Positions 40,000 to 62,367 of a stretch of 64,000 bases of DNA are shown here, piece after piece. The notes under the pieces are model-generated. The model did not search any database. It was not told the origin of the DNA and worked only from the letters and a program-made list of their open reading frames with translations. The stretch is taken from assembly GCF_900142845.1 (NCBI RefSeq), contig NZ_FSRU01000001.1, positions 3,410,001 to 3,474,000 on the forward strand, read 5' to 3'. This DNA comes from Paraburkholderia phenazinium (GTDB lineage Bacteria; Pseudomonadota; Gammaproteobacteria; Burkholderiales; Burkholderiaceae). A program made the position numbers and the translations under genes. Numbering within the stretch: position 1 is the first letter of the stretch; each line of letters starts with the position of its first letter.

Positions 40000-40398
40000 T
40001 TTTGCGAGTCCTCGGTGATCCTGAATATGGGAAGTCCGTTTGAGTCTCAGATTGAGCAAACGGGGCTACGGACCCGCTCAAGGTCCCATATGCGACCTTA
40101 GGTTTCATATCGGACGCACAGCCTAATTATAGACCCCGATCTTTTTTAGAAAGAACAAAAATCTGCGTACTTAGCGCAAACCCTAGTGCTGCACCTCGCA
40201 CTGGCCCGGACGTCTCTGCCGTCGACTTAGCATCACGCGTGGCGTTCTCTACGAACCATGGGGCGCACCGAAAGCTTCGACGCAGCGTTTCGGGAGGTAT
40301 TCCATACGGAATCCTGATTGCGTCCTCTTCCGCAATTCCGTCACGGCTCAGCCGTTCCCGTGGAACTCCACCGTCGCGGCAGAACCATGATCGTACTG
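40000..40398. promoter_or_regulatory. Promoter region of the binding-protein gene
   Basis: The left part contains the ribosome site, operator A (40082-40116) and a TATAAT box on the minus strand. The part beyond about 40200 shows no gene. Sequence from 40100 to about 40200 is visibly related to 61395-61490. Confidence 0.6.
40082..40116 (-). promoter_or_regulatory. Operator A: tandem 16-bp palindromes with promoter for the binding-protein gene
   Basis: The elements are GGTCCCATATGCGACC at 40082-40097 and GGTTTCATATCGGACG at 40101-40116, starts 19 bp apart. On the minus strand a TATAAT (40126-40131) stands 9 bases before the operator, so the elements cover the transcription start and early leader. 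That position suits repression. Five other copies share motif and spacing (44067, 45430, 47215, 61376, 62333). Confidence 0.75.
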
Positions 40399-40717
40399 TC
40401 AGACCTTTCGATCATCGTAGCTGCATACATATTCGACAGTCTCAAACAGCGTCCCATCTATCTAGCTCTCGCGTTGAACACTAAATGAACCCCCGGCGCG
40501 ATACTCGCTCCAATCATTTCTACCGACCGCCCTAACCATGCAATGACCAGCCAATACCTCAATTACATCGTCAACAGTCGCCGGAAGCGTCATTAATCCG
40601 GGCAAAAGAACGCCGAGTGTTTTCCTCATTCCATCCGCAAAAAGATAGTGTGAGACATACATTTTTCACCATATTTATTTGCCATTTTTTGATGATTAAT
40701 ACTCCTACGTACTGCAT
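40399..40717 (-). pseudogene. Decayed ppnP-like nucleoside phosphorylase gene
   Basis: Fragments in three frames match the intact ppnP at 52625-52945: start MQYVGVLIIKK, then ANKYGEKCMSHTIF after a frameshift in an A-run, then FADGMRKTLGV after a second shift in a T-run, and finally an in-frame TAG after QRES followed by LFETVEYVCSYDD to the stop. The ORF remaining in the middle is 66 residues. So this copy carries two frameshifts and one nonsense codon and is probably dead. It lies just upstream of the binding-protein promoter region. Confidence 0.75.
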
Positions 40718-40843
40718 ATCATTTTATATTTTCCCCACCTCTCCAGAGCCTCGCCTCACGCCAAAAAATAAGCGACTGCAATCTCACTCGCGACATCACC
40801 AGCGACGATGATATTTTGAAATCTGAAAGCGGTGGACAGATGC

Positions 40844-41200
40844 TTAGGTCAGGTTGCTCCGCTCGCGCCAGTCCACCGGCGCAAGCGCGTAGAAAATGGT
40901 CGCGCCGCGGCCTTCGTAACGAACTGACGTACCTGCGGGAATCCAAAGCACATCGCCCGGTCTTGTCTCATAGGCATGCTCACCGACGCGCAGCGTAAAA
41001 GCCCCGTCAAGCGTAAAAATCAATTCGTCGTAGTGGACCGTCCATTCGACAGAGACATTGTCGAAACGCGCGAGACCCGCACCCATGGTTTTGCTTAGTT
41101 CAGGACCGACCAGGCGTGCGATCGACGCGGATCCGCTACCTTGTTCGCCGAACGGTTCGAAGGACACAGTGTCACGTTGAAAATGAATGACTTCGGACAT
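40844..41200 (-). CDS. Cupin-domain protein (small, EutQ-like)
   Basis: A 118-residue beta-barrel protein. The cupin motif 1 region is HYDELIFTLDGAFTLRVG near residues 60-78 and motif 2 is RPGDVLWIPAGTSVRY. One His and several Glu/Asp residues could hold a metal. Small cupins like this serve as isomerases, lyases or sensors in catabolic operons. The start chosen has GGAG six bases upstream; in-frame ATGs at 41206 and 41212 are alternatives. It lies downstream of the thiamine-diphosphate enzyme gene on the same strand, likely in the same transcript started by operator B. Confidence 0.85.
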   Translation of the reverse strand: MSEVIHFQRDTVSFEPFGEQGSGSASIARLVGPELSKTMGAGLARFDNVSVEWTVHYDELIFTLDGAFTLRVGEHAYETRPGDVLWIPAGTSVRYEGRGATIFYALAPVDWRERSNLT

Positions 41201-41406
41201 GGACATCTCCATCGTTGAGCGGCTGTACACAGTCGCCGAGGGTTTGCAAAAGGACGATTTTTCATCTTCCAGTGGAAGCAAAACAGCCGTGCCGTAATTG
41301 CGAAACGCGAACGGCCTTCATACCTGGGGCTGTTGACGGATAGTGCTCCTGTCATTTCATCCCCTTTGTTGTCGATTCGATGTCTTCTCGCTCTGCGACC
41401 TTGCTT

Positions 41407-43095
41407 TTATTTTGAAGCACCAAGTGCAGCTTCGCGAAATGAGCTAAGAGTTGCGAAAGGAGTAATTGCTTCGGGATCAATCAGACAGTGCAGGATCGCG
41501 GGCTTTCCGGAGGCGTATGCCCGATCCCACGCGCCTTCAAATTCTTCGGTGGTTTCGATGCGTTCGCCATAACCTCCGAAAGCCTGCGCGTATGCGGCGA
41601 AGTCCGGGTTACGTAATGTGGTGGCGACAACCCGGCCAGGATAGTTTTTCTCCTGATGCATCCGAATCGTGCCGTACATGCTGTTATCCACCACGATAAA
41701 AATGATGGGAAGTTCATATTGCACCGCGGTCGCAAATTCTTGCCCGTGCATCAGAAAGCAACCGTCGCCAGCGAATGAAACGACGGTTCTGTTACTGTGA
41801 ACACGTTTCGCAGCGACCGCTGCGGGTACGCCATAGCCCATGGAGCCGCATGTAGGAGCGAGCTGCGTTCCGAACTCGCTGAACCGGTAAAAGCGATGCA
41901 CCCAGATCGAGTAGTTTCCCGCGCCGTTGCAAATAACCGCATCAGCGGGAAGTCTTTTTTGGAGAAACTCGATGATCCGCGCCATTTGGAGTTCACCCGG
42001 AGACTGGATCCTGCTGAGGTCACTCCATCCTTCGTAATTCGTACGCGCAAGCTGCGTGGAAGACGCCCATAACGGCTGCTCAGGGGTGGCCAGCCTTGCA
42101 ACCGCGGCGGCGAAGGACCTCGGCGATGCGTTGATGGAGAGTGTCGGCTGATAAACGCGCCCCAGTTCGTTAGTGTCCGGATGCACGTGAATGACATTTT
42201 GCGCAGGGGTCGGAATTCGTAAAAGCGTATAACCCTGACTCGCTGCTTCGGACAGTCGGGTGCCGATCAGCAATACGAGATCTGCCTCTTCTATCCGGGC
42301 CACCAGCTTTGGATTCGCTCCGAAGCTAAGATCGCCGATGAAATTGGGATGTGTTGCTGGAAAGAGCATCTGCCGACGATACGAAACCGCTACAGGGAGG
42401 CCATATCGTTCGCTAAATCGGACAAAGTTGGACACAGCCTCGGCGTCCCAACCGCTGCCTCCGAGAATCGCGACGGGACGCTCGGCCGCCCGCAAATGTG
42501 CATCGAGCGTGGCAACGTTCGCTTCGCCGATCAACGTCTCGACCGGCGTGAACGGTTGAGGATCTAATGCGATGGCTGTCTCTGCAAGCATATCTTCGGG
42601 CAGCGCGATCACTACAGGTCCGGGCCGACCAGAAGTCGCTACATGGAATGCACGAAGCACAATCTCGGGGATCCGGGAAGGATCGTCGATTTCTGTAGCC
42701 CATTTCGCAAGGTGTCCAAACGTCGCCCGATAATCAACCTCCTGAAAAGCGTCGCGGCCGCGGGTTTTGCGTTCGACCTGGCCGACGAAAAGGATCATCG
42801 GGGTGGAGTCCTGCTGCGCGATATGAACGCCGGCCGCGGCGTTAGTGGCTCCTGGCCCACGTGTAACGAAACAGATTCCGGGTCGTCCCGAAAGTTTTCC
42901 ATGTGCCTCCGCCATCATGGCGGCACCTCCCTCCTGCCGACAAACCGTAACCTCTATGGGCGCGTCATGCAGTGCATCAAGCGCGGCAAGATAGCTTTCG
43001 CCGGGAACGCAAAAAAGGTGTTTGACACCGTGAAGTACCAGCTGATCAATGAGGATTTGCCCGCCAGTTCGCGGCGTTGAAAGAGAACATTGCAT
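41407..43095 (-). CDS. Thiamine-diphosphate-dependent enzyme (acetolactate synthase / 2-oxoacid decarboxylase superfamily)
   Basis: A 562-residue enzyme with the three domains of the POX/ILV family: N-terminal PYR domain with the catalytic Glu55 in RQEGGAAMM, a central TH3 domain, and a C-terminal PP domain whose cofactor motif GDGCFLMHG starts near residue 443 and ends with VVDNSMYGTI. FAD or quinone-specific features are not evident. The exact reaction (decarboxylase, carboligase or lyase) cannot be read from the sequence. The start has no strong ribosome site. It follows the SDR gene by 82 bp, and the two are probably co-transcribed, so the SDR may reduce or oxidise its product. Confidence 0.9.
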   Translation of the reverse strand: MQCSLSTPRTGGQILIDQLVLHGVKHLFCVPGESYLAALDALHDAPIEVTVCRQEGGAAMMAEAHGKLSGRPGICFVTRGPGATNAAAGVHIAQQDSTPMILFVGQVERKTRGRDAFQEVDYRATFGHLAKWATEIDDPSRIPEIVLRAFHVATSGRPGPVVIALPEDMLAETAIALDPQPFTPVETLIGEANVATLDAHLRAAERPVAILGGSGWDAEAVSNFVRFSERYGLPVAVSYRRQMLFPATHPNFIGDLSFGANPKLVARIEEADLVLLIGTRLSEAASQGYTLLRIPTPAQNVIHVHPDTNELGRVYQPTLSINASPRSFAAAVARLATPEQPLWASSTQLARTNYEGWSDLSRIQSPGELQMARIIEFLQKRLPADAVICNGAGNYSIWVHRFYRFSEFGTQLAPTCGSMGYGVPAAVAAKRVHSNRTVVSFAGDGCFLMHGQEFATAVQYELPIIFIVVDNSMYGTIRMHQEKNYPGRVVATTLRNPDFAAYAQAFGGYGERIETTEEFEGAWDRAYASGKPAILHCLIDPEAITPFATLSSFREAALGASK

Positions 43096-43177: not shown

Positions 43178-43948
43178 TCAGCAGGTATAGTTGAGGCCCA
43201 TTCGGCCACCGTCTGCAAAGATGACTTGCCCTGTAATGTACGAAGACTCATTGCTCGCAAGAAATAGAGCAATAGATGCAATTTCCTCTGGCTTGCCAAG
43301 GCGGCCCATCGGTGTGCGAGACATGATTTTTGCCGCGGCGTCCGGGGACGACAGCACCGTGTTTCGCACCAGCTCAGTTTCAATCGTGCCAGGGCCAATC
43401 GCATTCACGCGGATGCCGTGAGACGCGAGCGTAACCGCCATATTTCTGGTCAACTGGTTAATTCCGCCCTTCGAAACGTTATAAGCAAGTAACGAAGGAA
43501 TCGTCATCACGGAATTGACTGATGACATATTGATGATGACACCAGGGCTTTCTCTTGAAAGCAGGTGGCGCGCCACTTCCTGACTCGCGATGAACGCCGA
43601 TTTGAGATTGATGTTCAGGGTGCGGTCGAATACCTCTTCGGTGATTTCGAGCAGATCCTGCGGTGTTGCTACCCCTGCGCTGTTGAGCAAGATGTCAACT
43701 ACGCCCATGGTATCTATCGACGACTGCACCAAGGCCCGCACCTGCTTCGCATCACCCGCATCGGAGGGGAAAAACGTCGCCTTGAAACCTTGTCGCTGCA
43801 ATTCGTTTGCGAGAGCCTCACCAGAATTCTCGTTGATATCTGAAAAGCAGACTTCAGCGCCTGCCAAAGCAAATCGCTCTACGCACGCTCGCGCGATGCC
43901 ATTCGCACCTGCAACTACGAGTGCCTTCTTGCCTTCGAGCTGTTTCAT
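43178..43948 (-). CDS. SDR-family oxidoreductase, paralogue 1 of a near-identical pair
   Basis: A 256-residue classical SDR with catalytic Ser143, Tyr156 and Lys160 (YNVSK) and the substrate-tail pattern GPGTIETELV. The cofactor loop reads AGANGIA at residues 13-19, so the third glycine of TGxxxGIG is replaced; the same change occurs in the partner at 62482. Both proteins end GGRMGLNYTC. I count about 44 differences in 256 residues between them. GGGGAG lies 8 bases before the start. It is the first gene behind operator B, whose promoter is described separately. Confidence 0.93.
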   Translation of the reverse strand: MKQLEGKKALVVAGANGIARACVERFALAGAEVCFSDINENSGEALANELQRQGFKATFFPSDAGDAKQVRALVQSSIDTMGVVDILLNSAGVATPQDLLEITEEVFDRTLNINLKSAFIASQEVARHLLSRESPGVIINMSSVNSVMTIPSLLAYNVSKGGINQLTRNMAVTLASHGIRVNAIGPGTIETELVRNTVLSSPDAAAKIMSRTPMGRLGKPEEIASIALFLASNESSYITGQVIFADGGRMGLNYTC

Positions 43949-44066: not shown

Positions 44067-44130
44067 GGTCCGATATGGGACATTACGTCCGTATGAAGAC
44101 CATTCTATTGTTCCAACTCTTTGATGTCAA
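44067..44130 (-). promoter_or_regulatory. Operator B with sigma-70 promoter driving SDR paralogue 1
   Basis: Two palindromes, GGTCCGATATGGGACA (44067-44082) and CGTCCGTATGAAGACC (44086-44101), start 19 bp apart. On the minus strand TTGACA (44125-44130), a 17-bp spacer and TAGAAT (44102-44107) form a near-ideal promoter whose -10 directly abuts the second palindrome. The start would fall inside the operator, giving a leader of about 145 bases to the SDR gene. The arrangement matches operators C (leftward) and F. Confidence 0.8.
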
Positions 44131-44397: not shown

Positions 44398-45264
44398 TCA
44401 CGCCGGACGTGGCACAAGCGCGCCGAGAACCGCATCCAGTTCAATCTGACCGCGGATGATTTCATCGGGGTGATTTTCGAAATCAATCCAGTCTTCGTTG
44501 AGTCCATCGAACATGCGTATCCGTGACAGCGGATGCTTCATGCCTTGCGAGCGGAACAGCGCGTCCCAGGTGTCCCGGCCGATGGCTTCGGCGCGTACCG
44601 GGCGGTGAAGCACACGGGCAAAGGCCAAGGCGAGGTCGTTAGGGCTCACTCGGCGTGGACCTTCGAGTTCGACGATACGCACGCCGCTCCATGTTTGCTG
44701 GAGCAGTTCAGCCGCAACGCGGCCTACATCTCTGATGGAGACCATCGGCAAGGGCTTGTCCAGCGGCTGCAGGTAACTGGCGATGACGCCATCGTCACGA
44801 GCAGACGCGACATCCCGCGCGGCGTTTTCCATGAACCAGCACGGTCGCAGGAATGCTACCGGCACAGGCATGGTGCGCAACGCCTGCTCCATCATCGTGT
44901 GTTGTGTGAGCAGATTGCTCTCACTAGCTTGCGCACCGATCGTTGACAGACAAACCACTTTTTCGGGCCGCGCCTTCAGAATCGAGGCGGATACGGCGTC
45001 GCTAACTGCGCGCGCCTCGGGGAACCCCGGTGTGGGGTCGAATTCCGAAGGGGGCAGGATGAAAACGCCAACCGCGCCATCGAACGCGGCGGCGAGCGCG
45101 GTAGCGTCGTCCATGCGGGCAGTGGCAAGCTCGCAACCGCGCTCCGTCCACGAAGCGGCTCGTGCGATGTCACGCACGATCCCTCGCACGGGGAGACCTG
45201 CCGCTATAAGTTCGAGGGCCAGCGCGCTACCGACCTTACCGGTGATTCCCGTGATTGCATACAC
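44398..45264 (-). CDS. NmrA-like NAD(P)-binding protein (atypical SDR)
   Basis: A 288-residue protein opening MYAITGITGKVGSALALELIAAG, with the NADP-binding GxxGxxG pattern of NmrA and quinone-reductase-like atypical SDRs (in parts TGITGKVG). Further family marks are VFILPPSE and LRPCWFMENA. There is no YxxxK, as usual in this group. Members either sense the NADP/NADPH ratio or act as reductases or ring-cleavage helpers. The GTG start has GAGGAGG 9 bases upstream. It is read leftward from the operator C region, divergent from the iclR gene. Confidence 0.88.
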   Translation of the reverse strand: MYAITGITGKVGSALALELIAAGLPVRGIVRDIARAASWTERGCELATARMDDATALAAAFDGAVGVFILPPSEFDPTPGFPEARAVSDAVSASILKARPEKVVCLSTIGAQASESNLLTQHTMMEQALRTMPVPVAFLRPCWFMENAARDVASARDDGVIASYLQPLDKPLPMVSIRDVGRVAAELLQQTWSGVRIVELEGPRRVSPNDLALAFARVLHRPVRAEAIGRDTWDALFRSQGMKHPLSRIRMFDGLNEDWIDFENHPDEIIRGQIELDAVLGALVPRPA

Positions 45265-45683
45265 TGCTCATCCTCCTCGCGTGGATAATCATGATGGAGC
45301 CGCACTGAAGTACAAGCCGTCCGGTGTTCCTTCGCGCCGACGTGGCTCCCCGAAGTGAACCGTGCAAAGATCTGGAGGGCTGGAAGCGTAGTGTCCGAGG
45401 TGAAATACCTGGTTCGTTTTTGTTGACAAGGTCCGATATGTGACCTATAGTCTGAATTGGGACAATTCTATTGCCGCATTCTTTTGATGTCAACGCGAGG
45501 AAGGATTGCATTGGTCATTTAGCGGATAGAGATGTGCTATATGGAAACCGAAACATTCGGATCTCGTCATAAGACTCAACCAGTCTTGAGGCATCCAGAA
45601 GCTTTAGAGGGGCACGGGAAGCGGCGCGGGGCGTTGAACGACAAGACGTCTTCGCTTCCTTGAGGAAACGCGACTTTAGCGGT
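45265..45683. other. Divergent control region between nmrA-like and iclR genes
   Basis: Apart from operator C and its two promoters (45423-45493), the region contains no gene I can support. The leader to the iclR gene is long, about 230 bases, and the true start codon of iclR is not settled. Confidence 0.5.
45423..45493. promoter_or_regulatory. Operator C with two overlapping divergent promoters
   Basis: Palindromes GGTCCGATATGTGACC (45430-45445) and AGTCTGAATTGGGACA (45449-45464), 19 bp apart. Rightward promoter: TTGACA (45423-45428), 17-bp spacer, TATAGT (45446-45451); the first palindrome lies exactly within the spacer. Leftward promoter: TTGACA (complement of 45488-45493), 17-bp spacer, TAGAAT (complement of 45465-45470) abutting the second palindrome. 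Binding here would block both the iclR and the nmrA-like transcripts, a typical autoregulated divergent design. Confidence 0.82.
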
Positions 45684-46550
45684 ATGCCTCCCGATCGGTT
45701 TCAGAGTGCAATGCCAGTATCCACACCAAGTCAAAATTCATTTATCAGCATGAGTAAAGCAACTGGAAGTACCTCGGTGAAGGAGCGTCGCCCGTCACCG
45801 CGAGCTGCCGCGCGGATAGTCCACGTCCTGCGACTCTTGGCCGATTTGCGCGAAGGTGCAAATTTAAGTAAGTTATGCGAACTTACTTCCACCCCCAAGA
45901 CAAGCCTTCTGACGCTGTTGCGGGCTCTTACCGAAAGCGGCTACGTAAAAAACGTCCAGGGAACGTACACTTTAGGTTTGGAAGCGTTCAAGCTTGCATC
46001 AGCGGTTGTCGCTCACCGCCGCTTTCCCGAGGTTGCTCAATCGACAATTGAAGCGCTCGCCGCTGCTTCAGGTGAGACTGTGCTGATCGCTCATTTCACG
46101 CAAGACCGGCAACACATTGTTTATATCGCCAAGGCCGATAGCCCTAAGGAAGTGCGATTTATGGTGTCGGTTGGGGATAGAAGACCACTTTATTCGTCCT
46201 CTGCGGGGCGATTGCTCCTGGCAAATATGGCTCGGGTTGAGCAGGACGCTTACGTAAAGACTGTCCGGATCGACCCCGCCTCGAAATTGGTTACAAGCAA
46301 GTCCATGCTAAAGGACTTACTCGCTAAGGTTATTGAGTCCGGACTCGATACAGCAGACCTCGGCTCCGCCAACGATGTATATGGGATCGCTGCGCCGATC
46401 CTTGAGTCAAGTGGTGAGGTTTTGGCGGCGCTGGTCGTCGGTGGTCCAAACGCTCGAATGCTTGCCGACATACAGAACATCACCAATCTGTTAGTCCAGT
46501 CCGCGAACGAAATTTCCGAGCTTCTTGGCCGTCGCGGCCTTGACGCTTAA
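45684..46550 (+). CDS. IclR-family transcriptional regulator
   Basis: A 288-residue IclR protein as annotated here; the start is uncertain (45711 and 45750 are other ATGs, 45660 a TTG) because none has a clear ribosome site. The winged helix-turn-helix (RAAARIVHVLRLLADL, then TSTPKTSLLTLLRALTESGYV) precedes the larger IclR effector domain with VYIAKADSPKEVRF, SSSAGRLLLA and a hydrophobic pocket near IAAPILESSGEVLAALVVGG. Family members bind DNA as dimer of dimers at palindromic or repeated sites, often at their own promoter. Operator C lies upstream. It is the obvious candidate to bind all six tandem palindromes. Confidence 0.93.
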   Translation: MPPDRFQSAMPVSTPSQNSFISMSKATGSTSVKERRPSPRAAARIVHVLRLLADLREGANLSKLCELTSTPKTSLLTLLRALTESGYVKNVQGTYTLGLEAFKLASAVVAHRRFPEVAQSTIEALAAASGETVLIAHFTQDRQHIVYIAKADSPKEVRFMVSVGDRRPLYSSSAGRLLLANMARVEQDAYVKTVRIDPASKLVTSKSMLKDLLAKVIESGLDTADLGSANDVYGIAAPILESSGEVLAALVVGGPNARMLADIQNITNLLVQSANEISELLGRRGLDA

Positions 46551-47176: not shown

Positions 47177-47249
47177 TTGTTTTCACAAAAAACCGATGGC
47201 TATAATCAAGTCAAGGTCTCCTATGGAACGCGTGTTCTGATATCGGACC
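47177..47249 (+). promoter_or_regulatory. Operator D with rightward promoter before the porin
   Basis: Palindromes GGTCTCCTATGGAACG (47215-47230) and GTTCTGATATCGGACC (47234-47249), 19 bp apart. Upstream TTGTTT (47177-47182), 18 bases, TATAAT (47201-47206) and 8 bases to the operator. The same -35, spacer length, -10 and distance occur at operator E. The leader then contains a stub of a binding-protein gene and runs about 300 bases to the porin. Confidence 0.78.
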
Positions 47250-47555: not shown

Positions 47556-48716
47556 GTGAGTAATTCTTCAGTCAACTTAAAGATCTCTGCAATTGCGCTC
47601 TCGTGCGCATTCTTCACACTCAGTGCGCAGGCACAGTCCACAGTAACTCTCTATGGCGCACTCGACGAAGGTCTCGACTACGTAACCAACAGCGGAGGGC
47701 ATTCTCTTTGGCGCATGCGAGACGGCACATACGATGGCGTGTACGGCAGCCGATGGGGACTGAAGGGGAGCGAAGACCTCGGCGGAGGGCTCAGCGCCAT
47801 TTTCAAGCTGGAGGCAGGTTTCAGCGTCGAAAATGGCCAGATGCGACAGGGGGGACTGGAATTCGGACGGCAGGCTTACGTCGGATTGTCAGACGACAAA
47901 TACGGCACGCTTACGTTCGGGCGCCAGTACGATCCCGTTGTCGATTTCCTCCAGCCTATGACAGCAGGTGGCCAATTTGGCGGCCCGTTCGTCCATTCGG
48001 GCGATATCGACAATACGGACAACTCGTTCCGTGTAGACAACGCAATCAAATATGCTAGCCCGAAGATCGCTGGCGTAACGTTTGGCGGGATGTATTCGTT
48101 CTCAAACACCAATGCCGTCGGGCGGAGCACGACCGGACTCTGGGGCCTTGGAGCGAGCTACTCTTTCGGTCAATTTAATTTTGGCGGCGCTTACGAATAC
48201 ATCAAGGATCCAGGCGCCCTCCTCACGGACGGTGACTACGTGCCGAATACAACGGGGGCGGGGATCGGTGCGACCGGCCCCTTCAGCTACGTCGGACAGC
48301 CGGCCAGTCAACAAATCGTGGGCGCTGGGGTGTCCTATCTGATCGGTAACACAACGCTCGGCCTGGATTTCAGCGATACGAATTTTAAAGATGCGAACGG
48401 CACGACGAGCTCAGTGCGCTTCGACAATTACGAAGCGTTTGTACGCTACGCGATCAGCCCGGCGTTTTCTGTTGGTGGCGCCTATACGTACACCCACGGC
48501 AAGGTCAACTACAGCGGACAGGTTCCAATCTATCAATCAGTCGGGCTTGCGACGTCTTACGCACTTTCGAAAAGCACATCTCTCTACGCGATGGCCGTAT
48601 GGCAGAAGGCAGTTGGCGGCGCCGGCGTGGCTGATATCCTCGACGGTGCAGTTGGCGATGCATCAACTAACAACCACCAATCGGTGGTCCGAATCGGCAT
48701 TTATCACCTGTTCTAA
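47556..48716 (+). CDS. Outer-membrane porin (Gram-negative porin family), second copy
   Basis: A 386-residue porin with GTG start and AGGAG 8 bases upstream. Signal peptide at residues 1-27 ending AQA, followed by QSTVTLYGALDEGLDYV, and a C-terminal phenylalanine (IYHLF). It has the same fold and family as the porin at 5494 but differs throughout. It lies behind operator D on the same strand with no other gene between, so it is probably expressed with the regulon and admits its substrate through the outer membrane. Confidence 0.95.
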   Translation: MSNSSVNLKISAIALSCAFFTLSAQAQSTVTLYGALDEGLDYVTNSGGHSLWRMRDGTYDGVYGSRWGLKGSEDLGGGLSAIFKLEAGFSVENGQMRQGGLEFGRQAYVGLSDDKYGTLTFGRQYDPVVDFLQPMTAGGQFGGPFVHSGDIDNTDNSFRVDNAIKYASPKIAGVTFGGMYSFSNTNAVGRSTTGLWGLGASYSFGQFNFGGAYEYIKDPGALLTDGDYVPNTTGAGIGATGPFSYVGQPASQQIVGAGVSYLIGNTTLGLDFSDTNFKDANGTTSSVRFDNYEAFVRYAISPAFSVGGAYTYTHGKVNYSGQVPIYQSVGLATSYALSKSTSLYAMAVWQKAVGGAGVADILDGAVGDASTNNHQSVVRIGIYHLF

Positions 48717-51168: not shown

Positions 51169-51180
51169 CGCGGGCTCCAG

Positions 51181-53032: not shown

Positions 53033-53740
53033 TTACAGGGCTCGAACCAGCGCTCCATCGACACGGATATTTTGTCCGGTGATGTACCCCGCGCCTTCTG
53101 ACAGCAGAAAGGCAACTGTCTTGGCGATTTCCTCGACGGTGCCGAGTCGCCCTGCCGGCAGGCCAGCAACAAATTCTTTCGGGGCGTCCTCCCAACTGTC
53201 AACGTAGCCGGGCAGTACAGAGTTGATACGAATATTCTTCGCCGCGTAACGCTCCGCGTACAGGTGCGTGAACGCACTCAACCCTGCTCGCAGCGTCGAA
53301 GAAACTGGCATGATCTGGAGCGGTGAATCAGCGGCAAAGCTGGAAATATTAACGACCGCGCCGCCTCCTTGTGATTCGAACACCGGTGTAACGCGCCGCA
53401 GCATACGGATGACGTTCAACAAGATGATGTCAAGACCGCTGCGCCACTGGTCATCGGTAAGAGTCAGCAGGTCGCCTTTCGGAGGGTGACCAGTATTGTT
53501 AACAACCGCATCGATTCGTCCGTATTTGTTAAGCGTTTCCCGAACCAGCCGATCAATGTCAGCGTCCTCTGTAACCGAGCCAGATAGACCGAAACCGCCC
53601 AGTTCTTCAGCGAGTTTCGCCGCGCTGCCCGACGGTGACATGAGGGCCACCCGATAACCGCTGGATGCGAGCTCCTGCGCAATCGCCCCCCCCATGCCTT
53701 TACCCGCAGCTGTGACGATAGCAACTTTTTCGGCACTCAT
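53033..53740 (-). CDS. SDR-family protein with altered catalytic site
   Basis: A 235-residue Rossmann protein. Cofactor motif TAAGKGMG near residues 10-17 and NNTG instead of NNAG. Ser is present in NISSFAA, but where YxxxK should stand the sequence is PVSSTLRAG, so tyrosine is replaced by serine and lysine by arginine. Related SDRs with YSxLRAG exist; this one lacks even the tyrosine. AAGGAGG precedes the start; a 12-residue extension is unlikely. It lies just upstream of ppnP on the same strand. Confidence 0.85.
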   Translation of the reverse strand: MSAEKVAIVTAAGKGMGGAIAQELASSGYRVALMSPSGSAAKLAEELGGFGLSGSVTEDADIDRLVRETLNKYGRIDAVVNNTGHPPKGDLLTLTDDQWRSGLDIILLNVIRMLRRVTPVFESQGGGAVVNISSFAADSPLQIMPVSSTLRAGLSAFTHLYAERYAAKNIRINSVLPGYVDSWEDAPKEFVAGLPAGRLGTVEEIAKTVAFLLSEGAGYITGQNIRVDGALVRAL

Positions 53741-53935
53741 ACCACCTCCTTGTAGATAGTTTGGGAATTCACGCACGATGCGCCCGTGGAAGATCGACGT
53801 GTCTCCTTAAGACATGGTTCGGCTTTCAGTGAGGCTGGTAAGGTCAAAATCTTCGTGCAAATTCACAGTCCAAGCTCAACTTGATCATTTGAGATTTCGC
53901 GCTTTGCTGCACACACTCGAATCGCTGTGGGCCGC

Positions 53936-54874
53936 TTACAAATTCAGCTGATTGACGAGCTCGGGGACGTGGTCGAACAAGTCTCCCACCAGACCGTAAT
54001 CGGCGACGCTGAAAATCGGCGCTTCTGGGTCCTTGTTGATCGCCACGATGACCTTCGAGTCCTTCATGCCGGCCAGATGCTGGATCGCACCCGAGATGCC
54101 CACCGCGACGTACAGTTGCGGCGCGACGATCTTGCCCGTCTGGCCCACCTGATAGTCGTTCGGCACAAAGCCCGCGTCCACTGCGGCACGCGAGGCACCT
54201 AGTGCCGCGTTCAGCTTGTCCGCCAGCGGCTCGAGCACCTTCGTATAGTTCTCGCCACTGCCCAGACCCCGGCCACCGGAAACGATGATCGACGCCGACG
54301 TCAGCTCTGGACGGTCCAGCTTCGTGACTTCACGGCTCACGAACTGCGACAGGCCGCTGTCGGCTGCGGCGGCGATCTTCTCGACCGCTGCGCTGCCACC
54401 TTCTGCTGCTACCGGGTCAAAGCCGGTGGAACGCACCGTGATGACCTTGACCGGATCGCTCGACTGCACCGTTGCGATCGCATTACCTGCGTAGATCGGG
54501 CGCTCGAACGTGTCGGCGGAATCCACGGCGGTGATATCGCTGATCTGTGCGACGTCGAGCTTCGCTGCGATACGCGGGGCGATGTTCTTGCCGTACGCGG
54601 TAGCGGGCGCGAGGATATGCGAGTAGTCCTTCGCGATGTTCAGCACCGTCGCTTCGACGTTTTCCGCGAGGCCTGCTTCGAGTTGCGGCGCATCGGCCAG
54701 CAACACCTTGGCGACACCTGCGACCTTCGCTGCAGCGTCGGCCGCGCCCTGCGCGTTGTGACCTGCCACCAGCACGTGCACATCGCCGCCAATCTTGGCT
54801 GCCGCTGCCACCGTGTTCAGCGTCGCAGCCTTCAGCGACGCGTTGTCGTGTTCCGCAATTACCAGAATCGTCAT
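53936..54874 (-). CDS. etfA: Electron transfer flavoprotein, alpha subunit
   Basis: A 312-residue FixB/EtfA protein. The C-terminal FAD domain shows [13 protein letters not shown] and [17 protein letters not shown] with the later [18 protein letters not shown], all signatures of EtfA. It carries electrons from flavin dehydrogenases to the quinone pool. GGAG lies about 10 bases before the start. It follows etfB by 13 bp. Confidence 0.96.
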
Positions 54875-54887
54875 TTCGTCCGTCTCC

Positions 54888-55637
54888 TCACAGCACCTTG
54901 GCTTCGGTCTTGAGCTTCTCGACCAGCGTCTTCACATCGGCGACCTTCACGCCAGCGGAGCGCTTCGGCGGCTCGACAACCTTCAGCGTCTTCAGGCGCG
55001 GGGTCACGTCAACACCGAGGTCTTCCGGCTTGAGCGTCTCCAGCGGCTTCTTCTTCGCCTTCATGATGTTCGGCAGCGTGACGTAACGCGGCTCGTTCAG
55101 GCGCAGATCCGTGGTGACCACAGCCGGCAGCGTCAGCGCCAGCGTTTCCGCACCGCCGTCCACTTCGCGCGATACCGTTGCCTTGCCATCCGCCACGACA
55201 ACCTTCGATGCAAATGTCGCCTGCGGCAACCCTGCCAAGGCAGCCAGCATCTGACCAGTCTGGTTCGAATCGTCGTCGATGGCCTGCTTGCCGAGAATGA
55301 TCAGCGATGGCTGTTCCTTGTCGACCAGCGCCTTGAGCAGCTTGGCGACAGCCAGCGGCTGCAGTTCTTCCGACGACTCGATCAGGATCGCGCGGTCCGC
55401 GCCGATCGCGAGCGCCGTGCGCAACGTTTCCTGCGCCTGCGTCACGCCCGCCGACACAGCGATCACTTCGGTCGCCACGCCCGCTTCCCGCAGACGCACC
55501 GCCTCTTCCACGGCGATCTCGTCGAACGGATTCATCGACATCTTTACATTCGCAATGTCGACGCCCGTGCCATCCGATTTCACCCGGACTTTCACGTTGT
55601 AATCGACCACTCTCTTCACCGGCACCAATACTTTCAT
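54888..55637 (-). CDS. etfB: Electron transfer flavoprotein, beta subunit
   Basis: A 249-residue protein starting [20 protein letters not shown], the standard EtfB opening. The AMP-binding region and the recognition loop [10 protein letters not shown] are seen. An 8-residue extension upstream is possible but GAGAGGA stands before the chosen ATG. Codon use is as biased as in pnt, unlike flanking accessory genes. EtfAB would accept electrons from acyl-CoA or N-methyl-amine dehydrogenases; the flavin oxidase gene upstream may be a donor (inference). Confidence 0.95.
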
Positions 55638-55699
55638 GTATGTCCTCTCATCGCCGCACACGACTGAATCGCAGCGTCGCTCTCCGCAAGTACGCGTCC

Positions 55700-55740
55700 A
55701 GACACGCGCTGACGGCGTTTCGCGCCGTCAGCGCGTGTCT
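55700..55740. terminator. Strong 18-bp hairpin after the hydantoinase-oxidase transcript
   Basis: AGACACGCGCTGACGGCG (55700-55717) and its exact complement (55723-55740) are separated by TTTCG. It lies between the stop of the flavin oxidase gene and the start of etfB, both on the minus strand. No T-run follows on the minus strand; TTCCCCTT follows on the plus strand. It probably ends or insulates the hyuAB-oxidase transcript. Confidence 0.65.
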
Positions 55741-55762
55741 TCCCCTTATATCCGGATGCTTG

Positions 55763-56935
55763 TCACACGACGTTTTTCTCGACAATCGGTTGGTTTTCCA
55801 ACACCCTGGACCAACCGAGAGAAGAAACATCCAACGTTGTATAGCGACCATTTCTGATCAGCTCGCTCACAGCACGTCCCGTTGCAGGTCCATGTTGCAA
55901 ACCATGACCACTGAAACCATTTGCAAAAACGCAATTCTCGACATCGGGGTGGTATCCGATGATGGCGTTTTGATCAAATACGTTGTACTCGTAATAGCCA
56001 GACCAGCAACTCTCGACTCTGAGCGCCTCAAACTGGGGAACCCGTTCTGCGAGTTTGGGCCACACGATCTCGTCGAAAAGTGCGTGATCTACTTCGTGCA
56101 GGGGCAAATCATCATGGTCATTCTCTGGCTTGGGTGCGATACCGCAAAGGTAACCGTTGCCTTCGGGTCGAAACCAGACGCCAGTAGGGTCAATCAGGAG
56201 AGGAGCGCGTTCTAGGACAGCAGGGGATGAAACGTTGAAAATGCTCCGACGGCGCGCGTGCACAGGGAGATCAATATCGAGCATCGCTGCGATGTTTCTA
56301 GCCCACGGCCCGGCTGCATTAACCAACGTGTCACATTCAAACTCCTCGCCGGAGGACGTCGCGACTCCGGTGGCCCGGCGAGCTTGCCTACGCACAGCGA
56401 CAACTTCCAATGGAAAGTAGCGGGCACCTAGCGCCTGGGCCTTTTTCCTTAGTGCTTGAAGCACACCGTAGCTATCGAACCAGCCTTCACCTGAGACCCC
56501 GTACGAACCCGCTTCCAGATCGTCCACGTTCAGCCACGGAAACCGCTCAACCAGGCCCTTGCAATCCAGAAACGCAATGTTGGCTCCAAGACTATTCTGC
56601 ATTGCGCAGTTCTCTCGCAGGACATCGGCCCCCTGCCGACCCGCAAGAAACAGATATCCGCCTTCATGCAGACTGGCCGTCGGTTTCGATCCGTTCACAT
56701 CAAGAAGTTCTGGCATGGACCGAAGAAATTCGAGCCCGAAGCCTGACATCTGAACAGCCACCGCAGTCGAAAACTGCTGGCGAATCCCGGATCCAGAAAG
56801 CGCAGAAGACGAGCGAGCATAGCTCGGATCGCGCTCCAGGACCGTGACGGAGAGGCCGGGTTCATTCGCCAATAGAAAATAGGCCACTGCACTGCCAATC
56901 ACTCCGCCGCCAATGATTACGACTTTCTGAGCCAC
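55763..56935 (-). CDS. FAD-dependent oxidoreductase of the DAO family (glycine/sarcosine oxidase or dehydrogenase-like)
   Basis: A 390-residue flavoprotein. The FAD Rossmann motif is IIGGGVIGSAVAYFL at residues 6-20, followed by VLERD and SGSGIRQQFS near residues 48-57, a pattern seen in sarcosine/dimethylglycine-oxidase and related D-amino-acid oxidase-type enzymes. The C-terminus has NGFSGHGLQHGPATGRAVSELI, which binds FAD. It would oxidise a C-N bond of an N-substituted amino acid. The GTG start has GAGGAAG just upstream. It follows hyuB on the same strand by 115 bp and is the last gene before the strong hairpin. Confidence 0.9.
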   Translation of the reverse strand: MAQKVVIIGGGVIGSAVAYFLLANEPGLSVTVLERDPSYARSSSALSGSGIRQQFSTAVAVQMSGFGLEFLRSMPELLDVNGSKPTASLHEGGYLFLAGRQGADVLRENCAMQNSLGANIAFLDCKGLVERFPWLNVDDLEAGSYGVSGEGWFDSYGVLQALRKKAQALGARYFPLEVVAVRRQARRATGVATSSGEEFECDTLVNAAGPWARNIAAMLDIDLPVHARRRSIFNVSSPAVLERAPLLIDPTGVWFRPEGNGYLCGIAPKPENDHDDLPLHEVDHALFDEIVWPKLAERVPQFEALRVESCWSGYYEYNVFDQNAIIGYHPDVENCVFANGFSGHGLQHGPATGRAVSELIRNGRYTTLDVSSLGWSRVLENQPIVEKNVV

Positions 56936-57050
56936 TTTCGCTTCCTCCTATTGCTAACTAAGTGGTGATTCCGGATTACGTGGGCGATTGCGATCAGCCG
57001 TCCCCTATTGCGCAGGAGACAGCGAGTCGCCGACTCGTCTACCAAGGCCA

Positions 57051-58679
57051 CTACCGGATCACGAGATCGTTTTCAACGTCGAGCCGTTCTGCGGTTTTGT
57101 CCCGCAACTTCGGGTTTCCAATGCCCCCGCCACCCGGCGTGCGTAATTGAATAACCTCGCCGGGCTGGATGACCTGCGTTCCCTTTCCTGCCATCACCCT
57201 GTCAGAGTCACGCATGCCAAGGTATCCGCTTGCACCGTCCTGACCTTCGTTACGGCCACGAGGAGGATGTTCTATCCGGTCAAAAGCAGCCAGAAGTTCT
57301 ATAGGGCTGGAAGAAATATTCTCGATTTCGATATCGAGGCCGTTACCGCCGCGCCATTGACCTGCCCCCCCGGAACCGGGTCGCAGCTCTTTCTTCCAGA
57401 ACATCAACGGCGTCGTGGTTTCCACAATCTCGATCGGCGTGCCTTTAACGCCGCTTGGGTACGCAGTCGCACTTAGCCCGTCTTTACCCGGACGCGCGCC
57501 GACGCCACCGTTTGTCACAATGCTACTGGCGAAAGCGCCGTTGCTACCGCCGTCGCGTCCACGGAAAGTCATAAGGTAAATGCACGATGTTCCTTCAGCG
57601 GGAACGCGGTCGGGAATCGCCTGGTGCAAACAGCCGAACACGACATCAGGAAGCATCTGGCCAACAATGTGCCGTGACGCTACGGGTGAAGGTTTCAGCG
57701 CATTAACAATAGAACCTTCTGGCGCAACTACGTCAAACAAGGATAGTGAGCCCGCGTTGTTAGGTATATGCGGCGCAACCGCGCAAGACAGTCCAAAAAT
57801 TGCATAAGCTTTGGTATAGGACATCGGGCAGTTGATGCCCTTTCCCGATGCTGGCGAGGAGCCGGCAAAGTCAACAGCAATTCCCGATTCCGTGATCGTC
57901 GTCCTCGCAGTCAACGTAACAGGCTCGCTGTACCCGTCGATCGTCATGGAGCTTGTCCATGACCCCTTCGGCAGCTCCTTGACTGCGGCCAGCACCGCGG
58001 CACGCGAGCTTTCGAGAATATGTCGGCCGAGTTCGTCAAGGCTGTCCAGGTTGAACTCCCGCATCATGTCCGAAAGCCGCCGCGCACCGATTGCATTGCA
58101 ATTCACAAGGGAATAGATATCTCCCTCCGTGTCGACCGGTGTACGTGTGTTGGCTTTGAAAATAGCCATCAACGTCTCGTTGAGCACACCCGCGTCAAAA
58201 AGCTTCATGAATGGCACTGCAAGCCCTTCCATGAAGACATCTGTCCCGTCTGGAACCGTCCCGATTCCCCCAATGTCCATCAGATGGCTTGTCGACGCGA
58301 ACAATGCGACTAAGGTGCCGTCGTGGAAGGCTGGCGTCACCACCACGAGATCATTCAGGTGGCCCGTTCCCTTCCATGGATCGTTCGTACAATATACGTC
58401 CCCTGCCTTCATGCTATCTGCGGGGAACGCCTTGAGGAAGTGGCCAACCGATTCGGCCATTGAGTTGACGTGGCCAGGGGTACCCGTCACAGCCTGCGCC
58501 AGCATGCGTCCTTGAAGATCAAATACGCCTGCCGAGAGGTCTCCTGACTCGCGCACAATCGTACTGAACGCAGTTCGCAGCAGCGTCTGCGCCTGCTCTT
58601 CGACGACCGCCAGCAGTCTGTTCCACATGATCTGACGGCGGATCTCGTACAGTCCACCTTGCCTGACTTCCGATTTCAT
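57051..58679 (-). CDS. hyuB: Hydantoinase B / oxoprolinase family protein
   Basis: A 542-residue subunit. Features of the family: ESGDLSAGVFDLQGRMLAQ near residue 45, PGHVNSMAESV, then a segment GDVYCTNDPWKGTGHLNDLVVVTP, and late in the protein PGSGGAGQWRGGNG and TPGGGGIGNPK (quoted in parts). HyuB pairs with HyuA for ATP-dependent hydrolysis of hydantoins, oxoproline or for carboxylation of ketones. Its start overlaps the hyuA stop by four bases. The substrate is not identifiable. Confidence 0.92.
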   Translation of the reverse strand: MKSEVRQGGLYEIRRQIMWNRLLAVVEEQAQTLLRTAFSTIVRESGDLSAGVFDLQGRMLAQAVTGTPGHVNSMAESVGHFLKAFPADSMKAGDVYCTNDPWKGTGHLNDLVVVTPAFHDGTLVALFASTSHLMDIGGIGTVPDGTDVFMEGLAVPFMKLFDAGVLNETLMAIFKANTRTPVDTEGDIYSLVNCNAIGARRLSDMMREFNLDSLDELGRHILESSRAAVLAAVKELPKGSWTSSMTIDGYSEPVTLTARTTITESGIAVDFAGSSPASGKGINCPMSYTKAYAIFGLSCAVAPHIPNNAGSLSLFDVVAPEGSIVNALKPSPVASRHIVGQMLPDVVFGCLHQAIPDRVPAEGTSCIYLMTFRGRDGGSNGAFASSIVTNGGVGARPGKDGLSATAYPSGVKGTPIEIVETTTPLMFWKKELRPGSGGAGQWRGGNGLDIEIENISSSPIELLAAFDRIEHPPRGRNEGQDGASGYLGMRDSDRVMAGKGTQVIQPGEVIQLRTPGGGGIGNPKLRDKTAERLDVENDLVIR

Positions 58680-60787
58680 CTTGACTCTCCCTGGGAGACG
58701 CTCTTCTCGAGCACAATGCAGAGTCGATCGTTGACGGACGCGCTAAAGGTCGCTGGCACGAACGTCGTCGTCTCATATTCAGCGATAATGGCCGGCCCAG
58801 TAAGCGTGTTGCCGACTTCCATCTGTTCTCGCGCATAGACCGGAACGGTGATCGATTTGTCCGAGTCCGGGTCGAACAGGGTTCGTTCACCGACCGGTGT
58901 TGCCTCTGTCGCCGTCACCGGTCCCCTTCGCGTGATATCGGGCTTTTCCGCTATCGTGCTAACCGAAAACGTCCAAGTCAGTATTTCGACAATTGCGTGT
59001 GGAATTGCACGCGAGAACAATGCGATATATTCCTTTTCGAAAGCATCTCTAAGCGACTCCGCATCGCCTGCCGTCAACTCGCGCGCCGGCACACGCACCA
59101 CGATCTCGTGTCCTTGGCCCTTGTAGCGCATGAATGCTTCGCATACTTCCACAAGTTCGCTGTCGCCCGCACCGGCGCGCACAACTGCACTGGCCTCCTG
59201 ACGCATCTGGTCGATGAGTCGATTGGCCTGACCCGCATCGAATGTCGACAACGTCATGTAGCGGCTTCGTACGACCTCGAAAGCAATCGGCGCCCGGAGA
59301 AACCCGACCGCAGATCCCACACCGGCGTTTGCCGGGATGATCACCCTTCTCATTCCCAGCTTCTCGGCAAGACGAGCCGCGTGCAGGGGTGCCGCACCGC
59401 CGAAGGCAATCATCGTATGTGTCGCGATGTCTTTGCCGCGTTCCACAGAGTGCACTCGTGCAGCATTGGCCATGTTTTCATCGACCATTTCAAGGACACC
59501 GTAGGCCGAGTGGTGCACGGAAAGGTCGAGCTTCTGCCCGATGGCTCGTGTCAGGGCGGCTGCCGAGCGGTCCGGATAGAGCTTCATCTTGCCGCCAGCA
59601 AAACGATCGGGATCGATTCGACCGATGCAAAGATTCGAATCCGTGACCGTTGGCTCTTCTCCACCGCGACCATAACAGGCGGGCCCCGGCTCGGAGCCTG
59701 CGCTCTCGGGCCCGACCGCAATGCGCTTCAATGTGTCGACATGGGCAATGGACCCCCCCCCTGCACCGATCTCTATCATTTCGATCACGGGAATGCGCAA
59801 CGGCAGTCCACTACCACGCAGGAATCGCGCTGCGCGGTCGACTTCGAAGGTGCGGGACGATTGAGGTTTCTGATCTTCGATGAGACAGATCTTCGCCGTG
59901 GTACCACCCATGTCGAACGAGACGACCTTGTGCTCGTCACATTGGGCCGCAACGTACGACGCAAGGATGGCACCGCCCGCCGGACCGCTCTCCACCAGGC
60001 GGATCGGGAAACGTGCGGCAGTCTCAAGGGTCGTCAGGCCGCCACCCGACGTCATCAGGTACACCGGGCAATCGAAACCACGTGTTACGAGCTCCTTTCC
60101 GAGCCGCTGCAGATACCCCGCCATCAGCGGCTGCACATAGGCGTTTGCAACTGCTGTCGAGGTCCGTTCGTATTCGCGCACTTCGGGACAAACTTCGTAC
60201 GAGAGAGTGACGGCAATGTCGGGACACTGTTCTGCAAGGATTTCCCGAACGCGCTGTTCGTGCTGCGGGTTGGCATACGAATGCAGCAACGCAACCGCGA
60301 CGCTCTTGATCCCCATACGCCTGAGCTCGGGAGCCAATGCGTGAACCGACTTGTCGTCAAGTGGCAATACGACGTCGCCGCGCGCGTTGACACGCTCAAT
60401 CACTGTGAATCGACGCGACCGCGGAATCAGCGCCGCGGGTTTGTCGATGAAAATGTCGTATTGATCAAAGCGTCCTTCGTCGGCGATGTCCAGGGTGTCC
60501 CTGAAACCTTCCGTGCCGATAACAGCGGTCAATGCACCCTTGCGCTCGATAATCGCATTGGTCGCGAGTGTCGTTCCGTGAATGAAAAGATCGACGTCAG
60601 ACGGGGAGATTTCATGCTCCGCGAGCAAGGAAAGTGTGCCGTCGATCACTGCTCGCTCCGGCTCGCCAGGCGTCGTCAGCACCTTGCTTGTGAGTCGCTC
60701 GCCATCACGCTCCACTACGATGTCTGTAAAAGTACCGCCTATATCAGATGACAATCTCACGCGAGATTTTCTGTCTTTCGTGCTCAT
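58676..60787 (-). CDS. hyuA: Hydantoinase A / oxoprolinase family protein (ASKHA ATPase)
   Basis: A 703-residue protein with two actin-like ATP-binding signatures, SDIGGTFTDIVVERDG at the start and VVSFDMGGTTAKICLIE in the middle. The family marker FIHGTTLATNAIIERKGA appears near residues 68-85. With HyuB it forms an ATP-dependent amidohydrolase or related carboxylase. The upstream small gene and operator E are on the same strand, about 590 bp away, so this may be a regulon transcript. The start has only a weak AAGGC upstream. Confidence 0.93.
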   Translation of the reverse strand: MSTKDRKSRVRLSSDIGGTFTDIVVERDGERLTSKVLTTPGEPERAVIDGTLSLLAEHEISPSDVDLFIHGTTLATNAIIERKGALTAVIGTEGFRDTLDIADEGRFDQYDIFIDKPAALIPRSRRFTVIERVNARGDVVLPLDDKSVHALAPELRRMGIKSVAVALLHSYANPQHEQRVREILAEQCPDIAVTLSYEVCPEVREYERTSTAVANAYVQPLMAGYLQRLGKELVTRGFDCPVYLMTSGGGLTTLETAARFPIRLVESGPAGGAILASYVAAQCDEHKVVSFDMGGTTAKICLIEDQKPQSSRTFEVDRAARFLRGSGLPLRIPVIEMIEIGAGGGSIAHVDTLKRIAVGPESAGSEPGPACYGRGGEEPTVTDSNLCIGRIDPDRFAGGKMKLYPDRSAAALTRAIGQKLDLSVHHSAYGVLEMVDENMANAARVHSVERGKDIATHTMIAFGGAAPLHAARLAEKLGMRRVIIPANAGVGSAVGFLRAPIAFEVVRSRYMTLSTFDAGQANRLIDQMRQEASAVVRAGAGDSELVEVCEAFMRYKGQGHEIVVRVPARELTAGDAESLRDAFEKEYIALFSRAIPHAIVEILTWTFSVSTIAEKPDITRRGPVTATEATPVGERTLFDPDSDKSITVPVYAREQMEVGNTLTGPAIIAEYETTTFVPATFSASVNDRLCIVLEKSVSQGESR

Positions 60788-61152: not shown

Positions 61153-61196
61153 CTTCGTCTCCTTCAACTGCCAATTTCCAACTCGGGGCAGGAAAC

Positions 61197-61271
61197 TTAC
61201 GTATCGGAGTGCGCTGATAACGCGACGCCAACGACCAAAAGTCGCCTGCGGAATTGCGAGAACTCGGACAT
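61197..61271 (-). pseudogene. Truncated start of a binding-protein gene after operator E
   Basis: A 24-codon frame, beginning MSEFSQFRRRLLVVGVALSA, matches the signal peptide of the complete binding protein at 38830-39999 (pattern xFRxRxLxxxxALxAHS, same position relative to the start). Immediately before the ATG both share CGAGGRNTYGCAAA. The frame then stops and no mature part follows. This is the remains of a second binding-protein gene or a copied promoter module. Confidence 0.7.
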
Positions 61272-61375
61272 TTTGCGAATCCCTCGAATAGCCTGATGGT
61301 CAATGGAAAGCGCGGGCTCAAGCTCAAGCTCAAGCTCGGAACGATGCGGCCTACCTCGTGAGTACCGACGATGAT

Positions 61376-61424
61376 GTTCCGTATTCGGACCATAAGTTTC
61401 ATATCGGACCACAATTCAATTATA
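61376..61424 (-). promoter_or_regulatory. Operator E with leftward promoter
   Basis: Palindromes GTTCCGTATTCGGACC (61376-61391) and AGTTTCATATCGGACC (61395-61410), 19 bp apart. On the minus strand TTGTTT, 18 bases, TATAAT (61419-61424) and 8 bases lead to the operator, exactly as at operator D. Sequence up to about 61490 is related to the region upstream of operator A. Transcription would run through the binding-protein stub, the small protein, hyuA, hyuB and the oxidase. Confidence 0.78.
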
Positions 61425-62303
61425 GGCGGGGAATTTTTCTGAAAACAACTAAATTCTGTAAAGGTCAGCGCAAACCCTAACGTTGTGACGATATGGCCTC
61501 GCGGTAGATACAGCGTCAGGGGGATACCCCTAGAATACGACTCGAGCGCACATAGATGCGCCGCTCGTGACAGCGTTGTGGCTGGCACGCTACCCCGGCG
61601 GGCCGATTCGACTGACAAAACAAGGCACCAATGCCCGGAGATCCGGACAGTCCTGGTCTGGCTTTTGTTAGGGGCCGCGGTGGGGTTGTCGGACTGGCGC
61701 CAGAGTCCCGTCTAAAACGACTTTCGGCAACCTATATGCGCGTGGCATTTATAGAGGAGTGCGAAATAATAATTCAAGATGCCGATAAATTTCATGATAT
61801 GAAATCCCCAATCCTGAACGCATCCAAACCACTCCCACCGAAAGACATCGCCGTCGGGTGTCAACCACACCAATCGCCGCCTAGGGCAAAGGCACTGCAT
61901 CGCTAGAGCCACATCGCGGCAAGAGGTGTCGGAAACCGCGATCTACGCCTGGTTAGCGACGGGTACGCGCATCCATCGCGGGTTGCGCGACTTCCGGACA
62001 CCGTCGGTGGGCAACGACGGCAGACGCCAGCTTGAATCCTTCAAAACCGAGTGTTTATATTCCTTGGACATTCCTTACGTATCCGCTTCCTTCAGGACAC
62101 GCTGGCTTTGGATATGCCCTAGCGGTGCGTCAACAGCTACCCCGCTACCGCTTTTTCCGCTATCAGACTCCCGCGCCTGCGGTTTACCCGCCCTGGTAAT
62201 GACCCTGCCCCACGGTCTCGTCGTGGTCCTTTGTCTCGCACTCCTCCCCACCATACATCGGGTGCCCGCGTTTCCCGCGTCGACGCCGCACATTTCTTGC
62301 GCG

Positions 62304-62367
62304 TTGACATCCCTGATTGGGTGAAATAGACTGTTCTCCATTCAGACCATTAGTCTCGCATGAGAAC
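62304..62367 (+). promoter_or_regulatory. Operator F with promoter driving SDR paralogue 2
   Basis: TTGACA (62304-62309), 17 bases, TAGACT (62327-62332) and then directly the palindromes GTTCTCCATTCAGACC (62333-62348) and AGTCTCGCATGAGAAC (62352-62367), 19 bp apart. The upstream CGTTGACATC is shared with operators B and C. The SDR gene starts 115 bases further on. Confidence 0.78.

Follow-up and report, generated by a model that had tools for sequence, protein, structure and literature searches.

Locus and Probable Target Genes

The window, a 64,000-nucleotide stretch of the Paraburkholderia phenazinium genome (NZ_FSRU01000001.1, positions 3,410,001 to 3,474,000), carries a gene for an IclR-family regulator (45750..46550, plus strand) and six double-palindrome sites, which are described here as candidate operators of this regulator. 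The encoded protein, the likely binder of the sites, has both IclR family domains, namely PF01614 (9e-27, 94.2 bits, cut-off 24) and the helix-turn-helix (HTH) domain PF09339 (3.8e-8, 33.4 bits, cut-off 22). Its open reading frame (ORF) opens at 45660, and the probable start at 45750 was placed by alignment to a homologue of 78% identity (P0002). Subfamily cut-offs were not reached, the protein scoring 107.6 of 350 bits for BhcR and 105.4 of 284.75 bits for PcaR/PcaU/PobR. Among the proteins scanned between 36 and 63 kb, which represent part of the ORFs, the only regulators were this IclR and a LysR-type protein at 36167.

The surrounding region probably serves the breakdown of some carbon compound, and a probable target lies behind each site. 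For the site at 40082..40116 (minus strand), this is a gene for a LivK-type substrate-binding protein (38830..39999, minus strand; PF13458, 1.4e-64), whose likely ATG (39999) follows about 83 bp downstream. Site 44067..44101 (minus strand) precedes the genes of a short-chain dehydrogenase/reductase (SDR; 43178..43948, minus strand; PF13561, 4.6e-66) and a thiamine pyrophosphate (TPP)-dependent enzyme (41407..43095, minus strand; NF006052, 887 bits, cut-off 539), whereas site 45430..45464 covers a divergent promoter pair, with a gene for an NmrA-like NAD(P)-binding protein leftward (44398..45264, minus strand; PF05368, 3e-17) and iclR rightward. On the plus strand, site 47215..47249 lies upstream of a Gram-negative porin gene (47556..48716, plus strand; PF13609, 8.8e-50). 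Site 61376..61410 (minus strand) is found 589 bp upstream of a row that encodes hydantoinase/oxoprolinase A and B (HyuA, HyuB), an FAD oxidoreductase (DAO), EtfB, EtfA and an SDR (53033..60787, minus strand; Pfam matches for 6/6 genes), and the common direction and spacing of these genes suggest a single operon. Finally, site 62333..62367 (plus strand) stands before a second SDR gene (62482..63252, plus strand, likely ATG at 62482), the first of a row that continues past the window end with a family III CoA-transferase, two acyl-CoA dehydrogenases, an enoyl-CoA hydratase and an aldehyde dehydrogenase. All operon limits are predictions from the DNA sequence. The two SDR genes, 43178-43948 and 62482-63252, are paralogues of 83% identity, and their promoters are alike too.

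Candidate Operators: Layout and Specificity

Each operator spans 35 bp and consists of two imperfect palindromes separated by a 3-bp spacer, with all 12 elements fitting a length of 16 bp. The consensus over both strands of all elements is approximately GGTCYSATATSRGACC, and the four boxes of an operator are laid out as GGTC-8-GACC-3-GGTC-8-GACC. In the half-site matrix (24 half-sites, with pseudocounts), the outer letters are G at 63%, G or T at 96%, T at 94% and C at 83%, and the inner ones are C (48%) or T (40%) at position 5, C (48%) or G (44%) at position 6 and A (71%) at position 7. Mutually, the operators share 15-26 of 35 letters, the boxes and the pitch being kept.

The six paired sites are real and non-random. 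The earlier note had claimed six twin-palindrome sites with a fixed 19-bp pitch, and every one of the 12 elements was found again at its position, with a start-to-start distance of exactly 19 bp in 6/6 sites; leave-one-out tests and simulation agreed. When a symmetric matrix was trained without the site in question, each held-out site ranked within the top 7 of the roughly 64,000 positions of the window, outranked by other true sites and, for 62333, additionally by one overlapping register of site 40082. Moreover, among the 57 window elements scoring at least 6, a pitch of 19 bp gave six pairs, and every other pitch from 8 to 59 bp gave at most one. The held-out pair scores were 32.8 (40082), 25.6 (44067), 32.2 (45430), 33.0 (47215), 31.1 (61376) and 20.0 (62333), and in none of the six tests did any pair of a simulated 8.5-Mb genome (one genome, first-order model built from 172 kb of the source genome) reach them. 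The margin was narrowest for 62333, the weakest of the six (20.0 against a simulated maximum of 19.0).

Two further details of the earlier note did not survive. The single 16-mer that it gave was not specific, since with three mismatches it had 79+82 matches, against 77+72 for the reversed control; the bare box pattern was weakly specific, at 103 matches per strand against 53 in the control (about twofold). Furthermore, the pitch does not equal two helical turns, as B-DNA has 10.5 bp per turn and 19 bp corresponds to about 1.8 turns.

A sequence profile of all six sites, applied to both strands (R1), gave 12 strand matches over the 8.5-Mb source genome, all of them at the six sites (E 3.8e-5 to 0.12; best 150 of 662 first-look candidates). 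Occurrence of the paired motif at unrelated places, a concern raised earlier, was not seen among the candidates scored with R1, whose matches all fall at these six sites. Because R1 was trained on them, this result speaks for exclusivity and is no independent discovery; it supports the view that the operators are exclusive to this region of the genome.

Predicted Promoters at the Sites

Promoters were taken as the best predicted sigma-70-like match in gene direction, scored out of 12, with predicted starts. At 44067, TTGACA-17-TAGAAT abuts the operator (11/12), and the same arrangement is found at the leftward (minus strand) promoter of 45430, where TTGACA-17-TAGAAT also abuts the operator (11/12). 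The rightward (plus strand) promoter of 45430, TTGACA-17-TATAGT, has its -10 box inside the operator (11/12) and faces iclR. At 62333, TTGACA-17-TAGACT again abuts the operator (10/12). In front of both 47215 and 61376, with a gap of 8 bp, lies a TTGTTT-18-TATAAT promoter (9/12 each); 61376 has a tied second candidate 22 bp before it. At 40082, a gap of 9 bp separates the predicted -10 box, TATAAT, from the operator, and the promoter scores 8/12, which is not above background.

Taken together, the distance from the -10 box to the operator is 0, 0, 0, 8, 8 and 9 bp for six promoters, and the box lies inside the operator for the seventh. As background, 500 random stretches were taken from this region, among which 91 reached a score of 8, 18 reached 9, two reached 10 and none reached 11. 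The claim that all sites lie at promoters was upheld for five of the six, whose predicted promoters score 9-11/12, and only weakly for 40082. A repressor-type position is accordingly predicted at five sites, and for 40082 this prediction is weak. If the predicted starts are used, the closeness of the -10 box to the operator, which it precedes by 0-9 bp or overlaps, makes repression the best reading. As a separate observation, long open frames at 49232-51106, 50842-52347 and 58997-60751 oppose PntB-, PntA- and HyuA-like genes, and are probably shadow frames, not genes.

Co-occurrence Across Genomes

Among 144 genomes of the genus, the IclR protein was encoded at 100% identity in two (the source genome and a second one, G030), with homologues of 44-47% identity in eight more and of 36-37% in a further three (E<=1e-36). 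When these genomes were scanned with R1 under stricter filters (best 48 candidates per genome), six-site sets were detected only in the two genomes that encode the identical IclR; of the other 142, two had one weak match each (E 0.84 and 0.98) and 140 had none. A first scan of genome contigs with the IclR protein as sole query returned nothing, and a class-wide search with it at E<=1e-36 matched the source genome only (1/369). In plasmid records, 1132 had a match, all below 60% identity, and hence no close carrier of this IclR was found there.

The corresponding region of G030 (contig C2) is 99.68% identical to that of the source over at least 115.7 kb (G000 C1:3398270-3514000), compared with an identity of 80-84% at one unrelated 3-kb locus. 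In view of this difference the G030 region looks like a recent copy, and two species of the genus have probably exchanged a large block not long ago. The shared block spans at least from 11.7 kb before the window to 50 kb past the window end, and neither end was reached.

Homologous IclR Loci

In the same genus, IclR homologues of 45-47% identity have tandem palindromes nearby, at pitches of 19 and 20 bp. In five loci from named Paraburkholderia species (L064-L068), the space between divergent genes contains a three-palindrome array, with a pitch of 19 and then 20 bp, plus a second pair at a pitch of 19 bp; the element edges are mostly GTTC in place of GGTC, and the array of L064 reads GTTCCGATTCTAGAAT-3-GTTTCGATATCGGCAA-4-GTTCGAATATCGGAAC. 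Paraburkholderia xenovorans (L069) retains the first pair only. With the 16-bp matrix of the window at a pitch of 19 or 20 bp, the best pair tops all 100 simulations in 5/6 Paraburkholderia loci. Moreover, all six loci have nearby genes matching those behind site 62333, i.e., the CoA-transferase (52-59% identity), the first acyl-CoA dehydrogenase (65-66%) and the second (39-44%).

A profile of the homologue sites, trained on the six Paraburkholderia loci (R3), matched nine of the 144 genomes, comprising 8/8 of those with a 44-47% IclR and, weakly, 1/136 of the others (E 0.049); at least two of the training loci, perhaps all, come from these genomes. The operators of the window and of the homologues have their architecture and core in common, and differ in their full letters.

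Three further observations were made at these and related loci. Between the two arrays of L064-L068 lies a conserved AGGGTATACGCCAGGC block outside the palindromes, which may be a site of another regulator or a promoter. In Variovorax sp. KK3, the locus of a 37% IclR homologue (L072:14673-14717) includes a near-perfect element, GGTCCGATATCAGAAC, spaced 29 bp from a candidate partner and close to two divergent ORFs. The pair TGTTCGATATAAGATC-3-TGTTCGTATAAAGAAC at a pitch of 19 bp (L044:2532-2566), beside a 28% IclR homologue, is probably nothing more than a tandem IclR site belonging to a different regulator.

Proposed Mechanism and Alternatives

We consider it highly probable that the IclR encoded at 45750-46550 uses the six sites as its operators, at which two dimers, i.e., a tetramer, would repress seven promoters until a pathway compound releases them. 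Comparison of the sequences strongly suggests this IclR as the binder; the earlier proposal of an IclR regulon is likewise supported by the co-occurrence in 2/144 genomes and by the tandem palindromes near related genes at the homologue loci. The tetramer and its release by an effector are suggested by analogy with the IclR family, and repression appears the better reading over activation. In this scheme, two IclR dimers would most likely sit side by side on the four boxes of each 35-bp site, and the bound protein would cover the -10 region and the transcription start. The seven promoters so repressed would serve the binding protein, the SDR/TPP-enzyme pair, the NmrA-like gene, iclR, the porin, the HyuAB/Etf row and the SDR/CoA-transferase row. 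When the C-terminal domain takes up a pathway compound, the repressor would come off and the whole set would be expressed.

Several results weigh against this reading. Upstream flanks are alike among 44067, the leftward side of 45430 and 62333 (28-32/60 letters), and between 47215 and 61376 (33/60), where 99% of random pairs share no more than 24/60 letters and the maximum is 30. Since this likeness is above chance, the six sites may not all be independent, and some promoters may have been copied along with their operators; the likeness is partly that of promoter letters shared at equal distance, and downstream flanks (9-20/60) stay within the random-pair range. When a profile was built from three sites only (R2) and tested on the other three, it picked up one of them with a weak score (E 3.75), but neither 47215 nor 62333 (best 150 of 160 candidates). 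A genuine pair elsewhere in the source genome (C1:2007324) scores 20.2 with the full matrix, as high as held-out 62333. It is the best outside pair among the loci examined and is absent from the R1 matches, and it was rejected as a promoter site because it lies partly within the 3' end of an SDR-type ORF, which is convergent with a second ORF. In addition, the near-identical copy in G030 gives no independent support.

At the homologue loci, L064-L068 are orthologous and are therefore counted as one case. The number of simulations out of 100 that reached the observed score was 3 for L069, 8 for L070, 4 for L071 and 3 for L072, none of them significant. The other window genes tested, besides IclR and the three named above, had weak or no matches in L064-L069. 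R3 found none of the six window sites (best 150 of 2446 candidates, and also with the window alone), and R1 found no homologue sites at E<=1 (best 48 candidates per genome). Given that the two profiles do not cross-match, the link between window and homologues rests on the shorter 16-bp matrix at a pitch of 19 or 20 bp.

Three other explanations were weighed against repression by this IclR. The same protein could bind the same sites and act as an activator, or both ways, at some of them, which we regard as unlikely. PcaU and PobR, both of the IclR family, act as an activator or in both ways, and the nearest named subfamily models of the present protein include PcaR/PcaU/PobR; likewise, site 45430 serves two divergent promoters, and dual action is common at divergent promoters. 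However, activator sites usually lie upstream of the -35 box, whereas the operators here are situated 0-9 bp downstream of the -10 box at 6/7 promoters and contain it at the seventh, which is a repressor position. It is less likely still, and in our view improbable, that a regulator encoded elsewhere, or the LysR at 36167, binds the sites with IclR as a bystander. The LysR gene is close, the attribution to IclR comes from sequence comparison, and co-occurrence does not single out IclR because the whole region travels together; nevertheless, the motif is similar to the group-1 type described for IclR regulators (PMC8222616), the homologue loci have the same kind of array beside IclR genes, and LysR had a single weak match in these loci (31% over 130 aa, in L067).

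An origin of the sites by copying of a promoter cassette or mobile repeat, with no common regulator, seems the least probable of the three, and very remote. It would fit the likeness of the upstream flanks within two promoter groups, and the fact that two of the genes behind are 83% identical paralogues. Against it, the operators have diverged (15-26/35 letters in common) yet keep boxes and pitch, the downstream flanks resemble random pairs (9-20/60, with a 99% null of 24), and all sites lie upstream of genes, with no others found by R1 in 8.5 Mb among the best 150 of 662 first-look candidates. The proposed repression by the IclR of the window offers a testable regulon for the catabolic region, with one regulator, six operators and seven predicted promoters, in which finding the inducer of IclR would point to the substrate of the region. 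The three-palindrome homologues, in turn, are a natural means of comparing operators with two and with three palindromes in one subfamily.

Comparison With Known Systems

Two motif types have been described for IclR regulators, GKTYCRYW3-4RYGRAMC (group 1) and TGRAACAN1-2TGTTYCA (group 2), together with tandem palindromes in 94 orthologous groups, whose centres are 18-22 nt (mainly 19-21) apart, a spacing taken to reflect tetramers in which the dimers lie on a common side of the DNA (Suvorova and Gelfand, 2021; PMC8222616). As in group 1, the present sites have inverted GKTY/RAMC outer boxes and an A/T-rich centre, and the distance between centres is 19 nt in 6/6 sites, within the tandem range. 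Regulons in that study often include dehydrogenases and Liv transport proteins, as in the present region. Thus, the earlier idea that this IclR subfamily may have a new class of operator has to be given up, since a similar motif type and the tandem spacing of about 19 nt were published in 2021, and the operator adds a new example to a class already described (PMC8222616). The picture of how IclR proteins bind DNA is not changed by it.

In their details the elements depart from the published forms (PMC8222616). The inner letters C R Y of group 1 are matched less well than the outer ones, a box such as GGTCCGA fitting C and R only. If the GKTYC boxes are superimposed, the 16-bp elements fall 1-2 bp short of GKTYCRYW3-4RYGRAMC; if the centres are superimposed, they equal in length the subgroup (iv) core, GTYCRAW4TYGRAC, and differ at letters 2, 5 and 6. 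The published subgroup elements measure 17 bp, or 18 bp when an N is counted at each end. A group with the same 16-bp form may be listed in the supplements of that paper. No publication on this regulator or site was found in the literature, a search that did not cover the supplementary motif tables of PMC8222616, and the letters GGTCCGATAT appeared in nine papers, all of which, judged by their titles, concern other subjects. Even-length IclR motifs are reported to prefer, in the HTH, Ser at position 30 (strong), Ala at 2 (weak) and Ala or Asn at 33 (strong) (PMC8222616). In the present IclR, by a hand alignment to TtgV numbering with gaps unchecked, Ser74 at 30 and Ala41 at 2 agree with this preference, whereas Thr77 at 33 departs from it.

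In each site, the two inner boxes (GACC-N3-GGTC) are spaced as in the published group-2 motif, and the outer pairs roughly as in group 1; the homologue arrays extend the box pattern to six boxes (pitch 19, then 20). A tentative and rather doubtful generalization is that operators are pieces of one alternating-box lattice cut to two, three, four or six boxes, which would include both motif types and the three-box sites, the number of boxes setting the oligomer (dimer, tetramer or hexamer) and the strength of repression.

As for individual regulators, BhcR (108 bits) and PcaR/PcaU/PobR (105 bits) are the best named subfamily models for the present IclR and share with its operator the alternating boxes, although PcaU has three boxes, compared with four here (PMC8222616). 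TtgV of Pseudomonas putida (PDB 2XRO) is an IclR-family protein with a DNA-bound structure, cited for tetramer binding in PMC8222616; unlike the present regulator, it controls efflux, and its sequence similarity to the present IclR is only 28 bits. PheR of Sphingobium has a different core (GCAACG) and another substrate, but it resembles the proposed system in that it is an IclR protein repressing a catabolic operon, with a 44-bp footprint across the transcription start, from +23 to -21 (PMC13273656).

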